This document shows, in pieces, positions 54,385-60,773 of a DNA stretch of 64,000 nt. Origin of the DNA: Rhodobacterales bacterium (lineage in GTDB: Bacteria > Pseudomonadota > Alphaproteobacteria > Rhodobacterales > Rhodobacteraceae); contig PDSA01000028.1 in the NCBI GenBank assembly GCA_002748285.1, positions 62,001 through 126,000 on the forward strand, in the 5' to 3' direction. Each line of letters opens with the position of its first letter. Position 1 is the stretch's first letter. The notes under the pieces are model-generated. The model was not told where the DNA came from. It worked only from the letters and a program-made list of their open reading frames with translations, and did not search any database. A program made the position numbers and the translations under genes.

Positions 54385-56431
54385 TTACTCCTCGACGAAC
54401 TGGACGGTCTTCACGTCCGGCAGTTCGGAAAGGTCCATCGAGTATTCGCGGCCATAGGAAGGGATGGGCAGGTCCTCTTCCTTCAGCTCCCACTCGTTGG
54501 GCAGATCCCAGAACTCGCGGAAGCCCTGCGCCCATGTCGGCCCCAGCTTGAAGCTGGAGGCATACATCTGCTGCACATGCACCCCGGCGTCCTTCTTGAG
54601 GATGCGCTCGCGCTCTTTCTCCATCCACTTGCGGGTGGGCACGGCTCTGGCCAGACGGTCCTTGCGGATCGCGGCGCGGCGCTTTTCGGTGGCGGCCTCA
54701 TCGGCAACCATCAGCCCGTCTGCCCCCTTCTTGAGCACCACGCCGTAAACCCGCTCGGCAAAGCGTTCCAGCAGGTAGCCGCCGTTCACGTCTTCGGCCA
54801 CGGCCGCGGGGTCGCGGTCCAGCGGATCGCCGAAGCCGGGACCGCCGCGCATGTAGTTGAGGTAGAGGTCGTGATCCTTGAACATGTCCTCGGTGGTGAT
54901 CGCCTGCTTGTCGCGCTTGATGCCCTCGGGGTTGATGAGGCCGTCAAACGTGGGGTTCTCGGGGTCGGTGTCCCCGCCGCAGGGGATCGGCTTGCCCGTG
55001 GCGATGGCTTCCTTCAGCCCGGTGTCATGGGCCTCGAACCGATACCCCGAGGCCGCCGGGTAGCCGCCCATCAGCCCCCAGTCGGAACTGATATGCCCGT
55101 TGCCCATGAAGAACATCGTCCAGTCCTTGGCGTTCCAGACCATGCGCAGGCTCTCGAAGCCGCAGCCGCCGCGGTATTTGCCCGCGAACGAGTTCACAGC
55201 GTGGATTTCGTCATACTGGTTGAACCCGCCGCCTTGCAGCCAGTTGGAGGTGTTGGCGTTGCCGGCGTTCACTTCCTCCAGATAGCCGCGTCCATAATAG
55301 GACCGCGACAGGCCGCGCCACAGCGCCGTCCAGGACGACACCAGGAAGTGCCAGCTATAGGCATAGGCCACGCGCCGGTCGTCGGGGTTCATCCAGGTGC
55401 CCTTGGGCAGCCGGAATTCGGTCCCGTAGGCGGCGCCATCGTTGATCATTTCGGAGGGGATCAGCGTCTGGGTCATCATCACCCAGATCCCCGACGTGAA
55501 CGACACCGCATGGGCGTTATAGGTGTGCCAGCCCCATCGGGTTGACCCTTCGAAGTCCAGCCGCCAAGTGCCGTCCGGGCGGATCGTCATCTCCGACGGG
55601 GTGTGCATGATGGTGTCCACCTTGGCGAAGGTCGAGGGCACATGCACGTCCTCATGGGCATAGGGCACGTCCACGAAGCCGACCTGACGGTAGGTGCCGG
55701 GAATGGTCATCGCCTTGATGCGGTTTTGCAGGCCAACCCGGCCATGCTCGACCGCCTCGTAGGCGAACTTCCAGTAGGCGTCGATGCCTTCCTCGGCGAT
55801 GACTTCCTCCACAAGATTGCGGATCATGTGGCAGCCGGCCACGCGGGTGCGTTCGTCCAGCATCCAGTAGCGGGTCGTGCGCACCGAACGCTGGGACTCG
55901 TGCAGCCAGTCGCGGAAGAGCTCATCGTTGGCGCCCACCTTGCGGCAGGTGACCGCGTAGCCATCCCCAAAGCGCTGAACCTGACCCGTGGTCATCGAGC
56001 CCGGCCCCACGGCGCCGGTGTCGATCACGTGGGTCACGCCGCCGACCCAGCCCACCAGTTCACCCTCGTGGAAGATGGGCACGATGGTGTGGATATCGCA
56101 GGGGTGGACGTTACCGATGAGCGGGTCATTGTTGGTGAAGATATCCCGGTCGGCAATGCCGGGGTTCCCCTCCCAGTCGTTCTCGATCATGTATTTGATC
56201 GCGGCGCCCATGGTGCCCACGTGGATGATGATCCCCGTTGAGATCCACCACCCCGGCCCGCAGACGCGAGAACAGCTTGTTATAGAGGATCGGGCTTTCC
56301 TTTTGCAGCGCCCTTTCCTTCAGGCCGGCATAGTGGCCGGTCTTTTTGGTGGCACCCATGATCTCGTCGCGGTGCTGCTTGAGCGTCTGACCGCCACGCA
56401 CGATGCCTTTGATATTTTTCTGAACATTCAT
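54385..56431 (-). pseudogene. acxB: Acetone carboxylase alpha subunit, internal deletion with frameshift
   Basis: From ATG 56431 the first frame reads MNVQKNIKGIVRGGQTLKQHRDE to LFSRLRAGVVD and then goes out of frame (LNGDHHPRG). The second frame picks up at STGIIIHVGTMGAAIKYM and is complete to the end. Roughly 32 residues normally between these points are absent. The rest is a hydantoinase B/HyuB-type domain with FTNNDPLIGNVHPCDI. The intact subunit would carry the carboxylation centre of the (alpha-beta-gamma)2 enzyme that turns acetone and bicarbonate into acetoacetate. Confidence 0.82.
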
Positions 56432-56455: not shown

Positions 56456-58609
56456 TTACACTTGTTTGAGGTGGAACAGACGGTGGCCATCCAGCCATGT
56501 CTCGAAACCGCCAGGCACGACAAAGGTTGTCGCATCTGATTCGATGATCGCGGGGCCGATGATACGGTTGCCGGGCGTAAGCGCCTCCATCAGGTAAAGC
56601 TGTGCATCGGCCCATTTGCCCTTGCGGTAGAACTTGCGCGTGCCGAGGTAAGCCGACTGGGGCGGCTCGGCGGGGCCTTCCTCTTCCTTCGGAATGTTGG
56701 GCTTGGGGATCGGCACGGTGCCGCGCATGATCGCCCCGGTGACCGAATAGCCAAGCTCGGGCGAGCGGGCCGAAGCGGCATAGACGCGGCCGTATTTGTC
56801 GTTGAAGGCGTCGACCAGCTTGTCCCAGTCAGCGGCAGATTTCGCCTTTTCGATCGGGCTGTCGATCTCCAGATCGTTGAGCTGGCCGCGATACTGCATC
56901 CGGTAGCCCGGCTGAAGCTCGACCTGATCACGGGTGTAGCCGTTGAGCTCGAACTCTTCGAGCACCTTTTCGGATAGCTCGTGCCAGGCGTCGTTGACAA
57001 GCCGCGCCTCAATCTCTTTGGCGTCATCGCTGGCCACTTCGGCGATGTTGATGTCGAGCGACTTGTCGTAGCGGTATTCGAAGTCCGCCGCGGCGCAGCC
57101 AAAGGCCGAGAACCCCGCAGCCCATGCAGGCACGATGACATCCTCGAAGTCCATCCCCTCGGTGTAGCCATAGGTATGGACCGGCCCTGCCCCCCCGTAG
57201 GAGAAGCACACGAAGGATGAGGGCGAGTAGCCCTTGCCCGAAATCAGCGCCTTGAGGTAGTCGCGCAGGTCGCTGTCGAGCAGTTCGATCACCCCGGCGG
57301 CGGCTTCCTCGACCGAAATGCCCAGCGGATCGGCGATCTGCTCTTTCATCGCGGCATAGGCGCGGTCGCGATCCAGTTTGACCTGCCCGCCAAGGAAGTT
57401 GTCCGGGTTGAGATAGCCCAGGATGACGTGGCAGTCGGAGATGGTCACCGTGTCGATGCCGCTCTCGGCCCAGCACACACCCACCCGGTAGCCGGCGCTG
57501 TCGGGGCCGAGCTTGATGGCCTTGGTGTAGGGGTCGAGCCGGATGAACGAGCCCGCGCCCGCACCGACCGAATCGAGCCCCACGAGGGGCAGCGACAGAA
57601 CCAGCCGCGCCATGTCGGGGTCGTTCTGGATGGTCAGCTCGCCTTGGGTGATGAGCGCCACATCAAACGAGGTGCCGCCGATGTCGGAACAGGCGATGTT
57701 CTTGTAGCCCAGCGTTTCGCCCAGATATTTGGCTCCGATCACCCCGCCGATGGGGCCGGAAACGATGGTTCGGGCGAGCTCCTTGGCTTTCCACGAGATG
57801 GTGCCGCCATGGGTCGCCATGACCCGGATGTCGAACTTGGAGCCGTTCTCCTTGAACGCGCCGGAGATCTTCTTCAGCGTCTGGCGGCTGGGCTCGGCGG
57901 CGAAGGCCTCCAGCACCGTGGTATTGGTGCGGTGGGTTTCCTTGCGCACAGGATAGTAGTCGCAGGAGGCAAAGACGGGGATGTCCTTGCCGGATTTCTC
58001 GACCTCATCCAGCACAATATCGCGCACGCGGCGCTCGTGGCCGGGGTTCTTGTAGCTGTGCAGCAGCGAGACCACGATGCCTTCAACACCTTGCGCGATC
58101 AGCTCTTTGGCGGCGGTGTGCGCGCCCTCTTCACGCAGTGGAATGACCACATCGCCGAACATGTCCACCCGCTCCATCACGCCGCGGGTCAGGTGCCGGG
58201 GCACCAGCGGCTCGTCGTAATAGTGGGTGTTGAGATGAATGCGGTCCTCATAGGCCATGCCCAGATAGGCCTGACAGGCGCGGCCCATGCGGTGGAAATC
58301 CTCCATCCCCGCATTGACGATCAGGCCAGTTTTCAGGCCCTTGCGCTGCACCACGCGGTTGAGCATCGCGGTGCCGGAATACACCCCGGTCTGGATCGAC
58401 GACAGGGCTTCCTCAAGGCTCAGCCCCCAGTGTTCCAGCCCTTCTCGGCTGGATTCGATCAGCCCCCGGGCTTCGTTATCGGGCGTTGATTGCGCTTTGC
58501 CGACGACGAATTCCCCATCCGCATCGACAAAGAACGTGTCCGTCATTGTCCCCCCTGCGTCGATGCCAAGCACCTGCACAGAGCGTTGGTTTTTCTTGTC
58601 AAGTGGCAC
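56456..58609 (-). CDS. acxA: Acetone carboxylase beta subunit (HyuA/hydantoinase A type)
   Basis: GTG 58609, preceded by GGAGG, gives a 717-residue protein, the length of known acetone carboxylase beta subunits. It has VLGIDAGGTMTDTFF, the acetate/sugar-kinase-like phosphate motif, VYSGTAMLNRVVQRKGLKTGLIV, CSDIGGTSFDVALI and CFSYGGAGPVHTYGYTEGM. It handles ATP-dependent activation of the substrates. The ORF-track start at 58789 reads back through the promoter. This gene is intact, unlike its two partners. Confidence 0.93.
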   Translation of the reverse strand: MPLDKKNQRSVQVLGIDAGGTMTDTFFVDADGEFVVGKAQSTPDNEARGLIESSREGLEHWGLSLEEALSSIQTGVYSGTAMLNRVVQRKGLKTGLIVNAGMEDFHRMGRACQAYLGMAYEDRIHLNTHYYDEPLVPRHLTRGVMERVDMFGDVVIPLREEGAHTAAKELIAQGVEGIVVSLLHSYKNPGHERRVRDIVLDEVEKSGKDIPVFASCDYYPVRKETHRTNTTVLEAFAAEPSRQTLKKISGAFKENGSKFDIRVMATHGGTISWKAKELARTIVSGPIGGVIGAKYLGETLGYKNIACSDIGGTSFDVALITQGELTIQNDPDMARLVLSLPLVGLDSVGAGAGSFIRLDPYTKAIKLGPDSAGYRVGVCWAESGIDTVTISDCHVILGYLNPDNFLGGQVKLDRDRAYAAMKEQIADPLGISVEEAAAGVIELLDSDLRDYLKALISGKGYSPSSFVCFSYGGAGPVHTYGYTEGMDFEDVIVPAWAAGFSAFGCAAADFEYRYDKSLDINIAEVASDDAKEIEARLVNDAWHELSEKVLEEFELNGYTRDQVELQPGYRMQYRGQLNDLEIDSPIEKAKSAADWDKLVDAFNDKYGRVYAASARSPELGYSVTGAIMRGTVPIPKPNIPKEEEGPAEPPQSAYLGTRKFYRKGKWADAQLYLMEALTPGNRIIGPAIIESDATTFVVPGGFETWLDGHRLFHLKQV

Positions 58610-58810
58610 GAAAAACTCCTCCCTTGGTTTTGGCCGTCCCGGATTTGGAACTGGCTGACCACCAGTCTGCCCTATAGCCGTGGGGTGGATTTGTCCGATG
58701 ATCGTGCGGGCTGACGGACATTCTGCGGACACAAGAAATCCGGCGGCCGAACAAACGGAAAAGAACACGCCCGGGGCGCGGAAGGGCATAGACCCGCACC
58801 GCTGTGCGGA
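58610..58810 (-). promoter_or_regulatory. acxA upstream region with TGTCCG motifs
   Basis: The 200 bases between acxR and acxA contain TTGTGTCCG (58734-58726 on the minus strand), a second TGTCCG close by, and an inverted CGGACA/TGTCCG pair about 17 bases apart. No sigma-54 -24/-12 element is visible. The same TTGTGTCCG occurs at 60705-60713 upstream of the synthetase. Confidence 0.5.
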
Positions 58811-60598
58811 TCAGCTTCGCGCGCGGGAGACGCCGTAGCTGTCCATTTTCAGATAAAGGGTCGAACGGGCGATGCCCAGACGGCGCGCGGTGCGGGTCAG
58901 GTTGCCACCCTCGGCTTCGACAGCGGCCAAAATCTGTGCCCGTTCCACGTCGCGCAGGGTTTCCACACCCCGGCTGTGGCCGCTCTCCAGATATTCCGGC
59001 GGCAAGGTTGCCTCGTCGATCAGGCCGTTGGGCGATAGGGCATCAAGTGCCGCGACAAGATTGCGCATCTCGCGCAGGTTGCCCGGCCAAGCATGTTGCT
59101 TCAGGCGTGCGACCGCCGAGGACGTGAACCGCAACTGCCGCCCGCCATCCTCTGCTGCGTGGCGGCGGATCATCTCGCGCAACAGGGGCTCGATTTCGTC
59201 GCGGCGCGCGCGCAGAGGCGGAATTTCGAGCCGCGCCCCAGCGATCCGGTAGTAAAGATCGCACCGGAAACGGCCCTCGGCCATTTCGTGATAAAGGTGC
59301 CGGGTGGACAGCGCGATAACCCGTGCGCCCATATCCGTGGTGTGTTCGACAAGGCCAAGCAAGAGCTTTTGCAAGTCCTCGGACATGGCACCGGGGGAAT
59401 TGAGGCACAGCACTCCGTGGCGTTCGAACCGGCCAGAGGCAATATAGTCGCGCAGTTTTTCTTCGGTCAGTTCCGCACAGTCGATCAGGTCGAACGGGGT
59501 GTCGGCATCGGGTCCGGCACGATGAATGGCCCGTGCAAGAAAGGTCTTGCCGGTGCCGGTCTCACCCTCGATAAGAACCGAAATGGACACGGGGGCAAGG
59601 CGCTGAGCCTGACCGCACACTCTGAAAATGGCGTCACCCGTCCGGCCGATTCGGGCAAGCTCGGCACCGGGATCGGCCTTCAAAGGCGGCGGGCGCCGCA
59701 AAGAGATCATCACTCCGATGGCTCCGTCCGCGTTGCCGACGACCTCAAGATCGGTGCCGGGCATGCAGTTCGACAGCGCCTCGGCAATGGTGTCGGGAGC
59801 CTGATCGATCAACTCGGGAATGCGCGTGCGCAAAGTCCGCAAGCCGGCATCGTCTTCGCAAAAGCGGGTGAAATCACTGGTGGCAAAAACATCGACCCCC
59901 GCCCGGTCCATCACCAGCGTCGGATCATTGCCCCGCCGAAGCTGCGCAATGTGGAACCGCTCCAGAAGGCGCTCGCGCTCGCGCGCATGCATCCGGCGCA
60001 GTTCGGCTTCGATTTGCAGGGCCAGAGCGGCTGACAGAGCGGCGGCATTGCGGTGCTCGTTGCCCCTGCTCCACGAGATGTCCACCACCCCCAGAACCAG
60101 ATCAGAGCTCGGGTCGCGCACGGGGGTGGCGGCACAGTTCCAGCGTTGAATTTCCTCGCAAAAATGCTCCGCCTCGCGGATCACGACCGAACGGCGCAGG
60201 TGCAGCGCGGTGCCGATGGCGTTGGTGCCAATGGCCGATTCAGCCCAGTTGCCGCCGATATGCAGGTGGTTTTCCTGTCCCCGCTCCAGCGTCTCCCGGT
60301 CACCCACCGCATCGACCACAACACCGGCGCGATCGCACAGCATCAGGATACTGCCCGTGTCACTCAGAAGCCGCCCGGCATGGTCCAGCGCCCGCCGTGC
60401 CCCCAGACGCAGCCGGCGCGACAGAGCCTGCTGGGTAAGAAGCTGTTCATCGGCCAGAACCGGGGCCCGCTTGCGCCGTAAGACAGGATACCGGGAGGAA
60501 CGCTGCCAGCTGTGCAGCACATCGTCCCGGATCTGCGGCGGAATGCGTCCGACCGCCAGAAAATTTTCCCAATCTGTCTTATCCAGACGATACGGCAT
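58811..60598 (-). CDS. acxR: AcoR/AcxR-type Fis-family regulator with atypical AAA+ domain
   Basis: The protein is about 595 residues: an N-terminal GAF-like region (LMLCDRAGVVVDAVGD, GGNWAESAIGTNAIGTAL), an AAA+ domain with Walker A GETGTGKTFLARAIH and FRCDLYYRIAGARLEIPPLRAR, and a C-terminal Fis helix-turn-helix (LTRTARRLGIARSTLYLKMDSYGV). The GAFTGA loop is missing and Walker B reads GVLCLNSPGAM without Asp-Glu. It is probably the acetone-responsive activator of acxABC. GTG 60610 is an alternative start. Confidence 0.87.
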   Translation of the reverse strand: MPYRLDKTDWENFLAVGRIPPQIRDDVLHSWQRSSRYPVLRRKRAPVLADEQLLTQQALSRRLRLGARRALDHAGRLLSDTGSILMLCDRAGVVVDAVGDRETLERGQENHLHIGGNWAESAIGTNAIGTALHLRRSVVIREAEHFCEEIQRWNCAATPVRDPSSDLVLGVVDISWSRGNEHRNAAALSAALALQIEAELRRMHARERERLLERFHIAQLRRGNDPTLVMDRAGVDVFATSDFTRFCEDDAGLRTLRTRIPELIDQAPDTIAEALSNCMPGTDLEVVGNADGAIGVMISLRRPPPLKADPGAELARIGRTGDAIFRVCGQAQRLAPVSISVLIEGETGTGKTFLARAIHRAGPDADTPFDLIDCAELTEEKLRDYIASGRFERHGVLCLNSPGAMSEDLQKLLLGLVEHTTDMGARVIALSTRHLYHEMAEGRFRCDLYYRIAGARLEIPPLRARRDEIEPLLREMIRRHAAEDGGRQLRFTSSAVARLKQHAWPGNLREMRNLVAALDALSPNGLIDEATLPPEYLESGHSRGVETLRDVERAQILAAVEAEGGNLTRTARRLGIARSTLYLKMDSYGVSRARS

Positions 60599-60773
60599 CT
60601 TCTCTCTCACATCTCCCCGTCGAAAGGCCGCCCGGCTAAAATATCAATGGCAAACGCAAGGCAGCGCCTTAAGTTTAACAAGAGTAGCAAAAAGTTTGAA
60701 CAAATTGTGTCCGATTTTTAGACAGTGGAAATTATTTGCCGATAATGCGACCCTTGCTTTCCTCCCGGATTTT

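Follow-up and report, generated by a model that had tools for sequence, protein, structure and literature searches.

The window analysed here, a 64,000-nucleotide stretch of contig PDSA01000028.1 from a Rhodobacterales bacterium (family Rhodobacteraceae, assembly GCA_002748285.1), carries an acetone carboxylase operon in the gene order acxR-acxA-acxB-acxC, which is also found in its relatives. The regulatory gene acxR lies directly upstream of acxABC on the same strand (Table 1). Judged by its gene adjoining acxABC, by full-length homology and by a GAF-AAA+-Fis HTH architecture, the encoded protein is an orthologue of AcxR. An in-frame GTG start is possible at 60610, and the open reading frame is intact from 58811 to 60610, giving a protein of 595-599 aa.

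The genome is a draft of 2.58 Mb in 57 contigs, about 96% complete. Two deletions interrupt acxB, with overlaps of 2-3 bp at their junctions; they represent either real decay or an assembly error, and the acx operon may therefore not work in this particular assembly.

Table 1 Features of the acxR-acxABC locus, numbered from the first nucleotide of the window
Feature	Position	Strand	Basis or remark
acxR, GAF / AAA+ / Fis-type HTH regulator without GAFTGA loop	58811..60598	-	ATG start
GAF domain, presumed effector sensor	59999..60346	-	Pfam PF01590
Walker A GETGTGKT	59543..59566	-	alignment; lysine invariant in 44/44 aligned AcxR proteins
RDYIASGRFE, short segment at the place of the relatives' L1/GAFTGA loop	59423..59452	-	alignment
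Walker B GVLCLNSPGAM, degenerate, without its D and E	59384..59416	-	alignment
Fis-type helix-turn-helix HTH_8	58835..58960	-	Pfam PF02954
acxA, acetone carboxylase beta subunit	56456..58609	-	GTG start, GGGAGGAG just before
acxB	54385..56431	-	compared with orthologues, 101 bp missing near 56243 (frameshift) and 162 bp missing near 55186 (in frame)
Inferred AcxR operator GTCCGCAGAATGTCCG...CACGATCATCGGACA, left palindrome half weak in the window genome	58692..58730	-	sequence conservation
Predicted -10-like hexamer CAGACT	58664..58669	-	offset of exactly 28 from the first base of CGGACA; relatives' consensus CATCCT
5'-terminal hairpin of the predicted leader RNA	58633..58655	-	computed

AcxR of the window has no GAFTGA loop

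From the letters of the window alone, the protein had been described as an AcxR-like regulator with a good Walker A motif, a missing sigma-54 contact loop and a Walker B reading GVLCLNSPGAM, and all three features were confirmed by alignment. No GAFTGA or close variant was found between Walker A and Walker B. The relatives' Walker B reads GxLCLDEIGE, and sensor I of the window protein is altered as well (LSTR versus MTNR). Pfam searches detected the GAF domain at residues 89-204, a split Sigma54_activat match, AAA_lid_14 and HTH_8. The best Sigma54_activat stretch stops at profile position 66, and in the whole-genome search the match consisted of two pieces, profile positions 7-66 and 94-167, between which the loop region is absent.

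Structure prediction gave a confident model (mean pLDDT 91) that matches the AAA+ domains of enhancer-binding proteins; the AAA+ fold is conserved despite the loss of the loop. Held against the hallmarks of a sigma-54 enhancer-binding protein, the window AcxR has Walker A and lacks GAFTGA, the aspartate and glutamate of Walker B, and a detectable rpoN in its host.

Loop loss defines one clade and probably preceded Walker B decay

Using a scan with an AcxA alignment, we fetched 80 named acxA loci; two of the loci examined (L124 and L127) have incomplete regulator genes and were excluded. At 32 loci including the window, the acxR linked to the acx genes has no loop, the 31 others coming from independent assemblies, isolate genomes among them. 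The hosts include Paracoccus, Thioclava, Roseovarius, Rhodovulum, Sinirhodobacter and Roseibium, as well as Martelella, Chelatococcus caeni, Mesorhizobium, Breoghania, Acidocella and others.

In an AcxR tree computed from an alignment that excluded the columns of the loop and of Walker B, all of these loop-less proteins group with two paralogues in one clade of 34 rows (SH-aLRT 94), the inner 32 rows having an SH-aLRT of 100, so that the loss seen in the window is indeed one shared by its relatives. The neighbour of this clade is formed by GAFTGA-containing AcxR proteins of Xanthobacter, Methylobacterium and relatives. On this tree, the loop label changes 2 times, compared with 26.7 times in shuffles. 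The second change concerns an AcoR-like protein outside the clade (G134, L041), in which GAFTGA was lost separately and which comes from another rpoN-less genome of the family.

The Walker B motif did not change at the same time. Its D and E are both kept in a 14-row subclade that includes P. denitrificans, with the exception of the two paralogues (SEP and VEP), and also in an early-branching Rhodovulum pair. The E is lost in an 18-row clade (support 100), and the D is lost too in most of that clade, the window included; GVLCLNSPGAM is thus one stage of a stepwise series across relatives. As Walker A is kept while the Walker B glutamate and then the aspartate are lost, this order suggests that AcxR could dispense with hydrolysis once the loop had been lost, with nucleotide binding probably retained. 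The Rhodovulum pair, R. visakhapatnamense (L079) and R. kholense (L080), combines a loop-less acxR and an intact Walker B with a different operator layout, and could possibly represent an intermediate state.

It should be noted that an operon with a loop-less AcxR can still be regulated. In P. denitrificans, which has a loop-less acxR (L060), proteomics showed a strong upregulation of AcxAB during growth on ethylene glycol (PMC12214560). Acidocella aminolytica (L069) has acxA together with a loop-less acxR of the Paracoccus type, and the switched unit may thus have been transferred horizontally.

Sigma-54 promoters are missing from loop-less loci

As the original prediction had stated, no -24/-12 site was found upstream of acxA in the window, where the best match over the 400-450 bp searched reached at most 6/10. 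A box matching at 8/10 or more precedes acxA in 39/40 loci with a GAFTGA-containing AcxR and in 1/32 loop-less loci (p = 4e-18); at 9/10 or more, the counts are 34/40 and 0/32. About 8% of shuffled sequences per locus reach 8/10, so the single loop-less match is at chance level. The boxes of the GAFTGA loci agree with what has been published on C. metallidurans (PMC2864759) and X. autotrophicus (PMC2244623). A sigma-54 promoter upstream of acxR that would drive the whole operon was also considered and rejected, since the loop-less loci have only scattered 8/10 matches there and none at 9/10 or more.

The gene for sigma-54 itself, rpoN, was not detected in the window's genome with Pfam PF04552 and PF04963, in an assembly of about 96% completeness. 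Among acx hosts, rpoN was found in all 19 of the 19 tested with a GAFTGA-containing AcxR and in 24/32 with a loop-less one (p = 0.019), leaving eight loop-less hosts, including that of the window, in which it was undetected. As most loop-less hosts retain rpoN, its loss was rejected as the driver of the switch in most lineages.

The link between rpoN and GAFTGA is also visible at the level of the window's family. Out of 298 genomes, 91 have rpoN and 54 contain a strict GAFTGA DNA pattern; 52 of these 54 belong to the rpoN set (p = 2e-30), and the two exceptions are 73-76% complete. A PF00158 search of the window's genome returned other enhancer-binding-protein-like genes (L001-L004 and L006; contigs C25, C3 and C23), which look NtrC-, NtrX- and DctD-like, plus two more, and GAFTGA is missing from these as well.

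The operator is kept and relocated next to a -10-like hexamer

The palindrome GTCCG-N5-CGGAC is common to the GAFTGA and the loop-less loci, except for the two Rhodovulum loci. It was found in 29/40 GAFTGA loci, with its centre mostly at -107 to -113 (about 111 bp) from the sigma-54 start, whereas in the loop-less loci its centre lies about 43 bp before the predicted acxA start. Apart from the Rhodovulum pair, the loop-less loci share a longer common block that ends in the palindrome, the left half being weak in some of them, as it is in the window. In the window's genome, no sequence other than the operator half GTCCGCAGAATGTCCG matches its pattern perfectly.

The operator block of the loop-less loci is followed by about 16 unconserved bases and then by a hexamer with the consensus CATCCT, in which A2 and T6 are nearly invariant. 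These are the two most conserved positions of the sigma-70 -10 element, although CATCCT matches TATAAT at only 3/6 positions. An xAxxxT hexamer begins exactly 28 bases after the first base of CGGACA in 23/25 non-redundant loop-less loci, and the remaining two have the hexamer at 27; every other offset occurs in three loop-less loci at most, and the GAFTGA loci give 2/29 (one mis-anchored row, L076, was left out of the later offset counts). No good -35 element was seen at the loop-less acxA promoters. CGGACA itself was rejected as a -35 hexamer, as its distance of 22 bases to the -10-like element exceeds a normal spacer.

We placed the predicted start 7 bases after the hexamer (near 58656 in the window), which would put the operator centre near -43, a class II position. 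In 24/25 loop-less loci, a hairpin begins within 3 nt of this predicted start (shuffled mean 7.4, maximum 14); such a hairpin, located at the 5' end of the predicted transcript, independently fits the predicted start. The hairpin is kept despite sequence divergence among the loop-less loci and may protect the acxA transcript.

The two loop-less AcxR paralogues, from Sinirhodobacter ferrireducens (L033:7715-10647) and Pseudodonghicola flavimaris (L032), are encoded upstream of a zinc alcohol dehydrogenase. The same palindrome lies between regulator and dehydrogenase, with a TATGCT or TATCCT hexamer at +51 or +50, respectively, about two helical turns farther from the palindrome than in the acx operons.

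AcxR likely switched to the housekeeping RNA polymerase

The loss of sigma-54 dependence proposed from the window alone is supported by the one-clade loss of the loop, the loss of the -24/-12 box, the absence of rpoN from the window's genome and seven further hosts, and the -10-like element at a fixed spacing. We consider it likely that AcxR left sigma-54 control in one large alphaproteobacterial clade and became a promoter-proximal, class II-like activator of the housekeeping RNA polymerase. The switch to sigma-70 promoters, also anticipated in the original prediction, is thereby favoured; here the promoter layout, with the -10-like element at a fixed distance from the operator, and the rpoN-less hosts point to sigma-70.

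An effector would be sensed through the GAF domain, and AcxR, to judge from sequence conservation, would still bind its ancestral operator between acxR and acxA but would no longer remodel RNA polymerase-sigma-54 through ATP hydrolysis. The predicted operator centre adjoins the place where a -35 element would lie, and bound AcxR would touch a sigma-70 type RNA polymerase directly and so recruit it to a promoter made of a -10-like element and a poor -35.

Of the other readings, the one that survives best is that loop-less AcxR represses acxABC, entirely or for the most part, until the effector relieves the repression. Loop loss removes sigma-54 activation, which would be tolerable in a repressor, and TyrR acts mainly as a repressor. 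TyrR is likewise described as having lost its interaction with sigma-54 (PMC3162934). We nevertheless find repression unlikely, as about 35 bp separate the end of the operator from the predicted start downstream, so that the -10 element and start site, which repressors usually cover, stay free, and as a poor -35 suits a promoter in need of an activator. It is this operator position that leads us to favour activation.

Comparison of the window acxR with its relatives gave dN/dS values of about 0.15-0.21, by which the gene is under purifying selection. Such values, together with open reading frames in 32 loci, an invariant Walker A lysine, and the conservation in several families of the HTH and of the operator with its fixed spacing, make it very improbable that acxR is decaying and that acxABC is constitutive or under other control, even if Walker B and sensor I are eroded, acxB is interrupted in the window assembly, and acxR evolves faster than acxA (59% versus 92% identity to Thioclava).

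We give almost no credence to continued sigma-54 dependence of acxABC, whether through another enhancer-binding protein or a non-canonical AcxR loop: the retention of rpoN in three quarters of the loop-less hosts would allow it, but neither acxA nor acxR is preceded by a convincing -24/-12 box, and the window's genome combines an undetected rpoN with enhancer-binding-protein-like genes that have no GAFTGA. Removal of the loop by a sequencing or assembly error, an explanation that the two deletions in the neighbouring acxB could have encouraged, is refuted by the same loss in homologous surroundings at 31 other loci, including isolate genomes.

Returning to activation by the housekeeping polymerase, we lean, with less assurance than for the switch itself, towards a complete stepwise conversion at one orthologous operon from a remote, ATP-driven sigma-54 activator to a promoter-proximal sigma-70 activator. 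The loop would have been lost first, then the catalytic glutamate and then the Walker B aspartate, leaving ATP as a structural ligand only; operator sequence and targets would have remained unchanged while the operator distance went from about 111 to about 43 bp.

Remote, ATP-driven activation of sigma-54 and activation of sigma-70 by recruitment are different mechanisms, and the crossing of a regulator between them is poorly documented. Among the acx loci, orthologues of both regulator and operon exist in the old and in the new state, with graded intermediates, so that a direct comparison is possible, and the control circuit was apparently rewired around an unchanged set of target genes. Our results also suggest that labelling these AcxR proteins as sigma-54 dependent is a mistake in at least 32 acx loci.

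Comparison with known systems

The AcxR proteins of Xanthobacter autotrophicus and Cupriavidus metallidurans share with the window AcxR the target operon acxABC and the GAF-AAA+-HTH architecture; the X. autotrophicus protein is homologous over its full length (38% identity, 334 bits), and the Xanthobacter acx locus has the same operator palindrome as the loop-less loci. Both proteins have GAFTGA and a -24/-12 promoter (PMC2864759, PMC2244623), and acxABC of X. autotrophicus uses sigma-54 and AcxR (PMC2244623), whereas the window has neither motif nor promoter. The operator lies at about -43 in the window, compared with about -111 in the sigma-54 AcxR loci.

NtrC of Rhodobacter capsulatus, to which the window protein had been likened, is a response regulator with a phosphorylated receiver domain where the window AcxR has GAF, and it binds far upstream of the transcription start. 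A loop including GAFTGA is deleted in this NtrC, which is reported as a sigma-70 activator that needs ATP binding and not hydrolysis (PMC10274813). The parallel therefore stands for the loss of the loop; with the class II-like promoter layout of the acx loci, DhaR and TyrR are perhaps closer models. The NtrC-like copy in the window's genome retains LDE in Walker B.

DhaR of Escherichia coli is described as sigma-70 dependent (PMC3162934). Like the window AcxR, it has a GAF-type N-terminus, an altered loop and a degenerate Walker B (LFLEK), but it differs in its target operon and in its partner, dihydroxyacetone kinase. DhaR is the best NCBIfam match of the window protein, at 189 bits against a cut-off of 551, and orthology was rejected (27% identity and 130 bits, versus 334 bits to AcxR).

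TyrR, HupR and VpsR differ from AcxR in their sensor domains and targets and are not orthologous to it. They are enhancer-binding-protein paralogues with a broken GAFTGA, described or proposed to be sigma-54 independent (PMC3162934). NtrC and HupR of R. capsulatus, TyrR and DhaR are known cases in which GAFTGA was lost and the protein works with sigma-70, and VpsR belongs to the same class (PMC10274813, PMC3162934). Loop-less sigma-70 regulators are thus already known; what appears to be new, relative to the part of the literature surveyed, is that the switch could be reconstructed at a single orthologous operon, for which the two end states are seen as well as intermediates.
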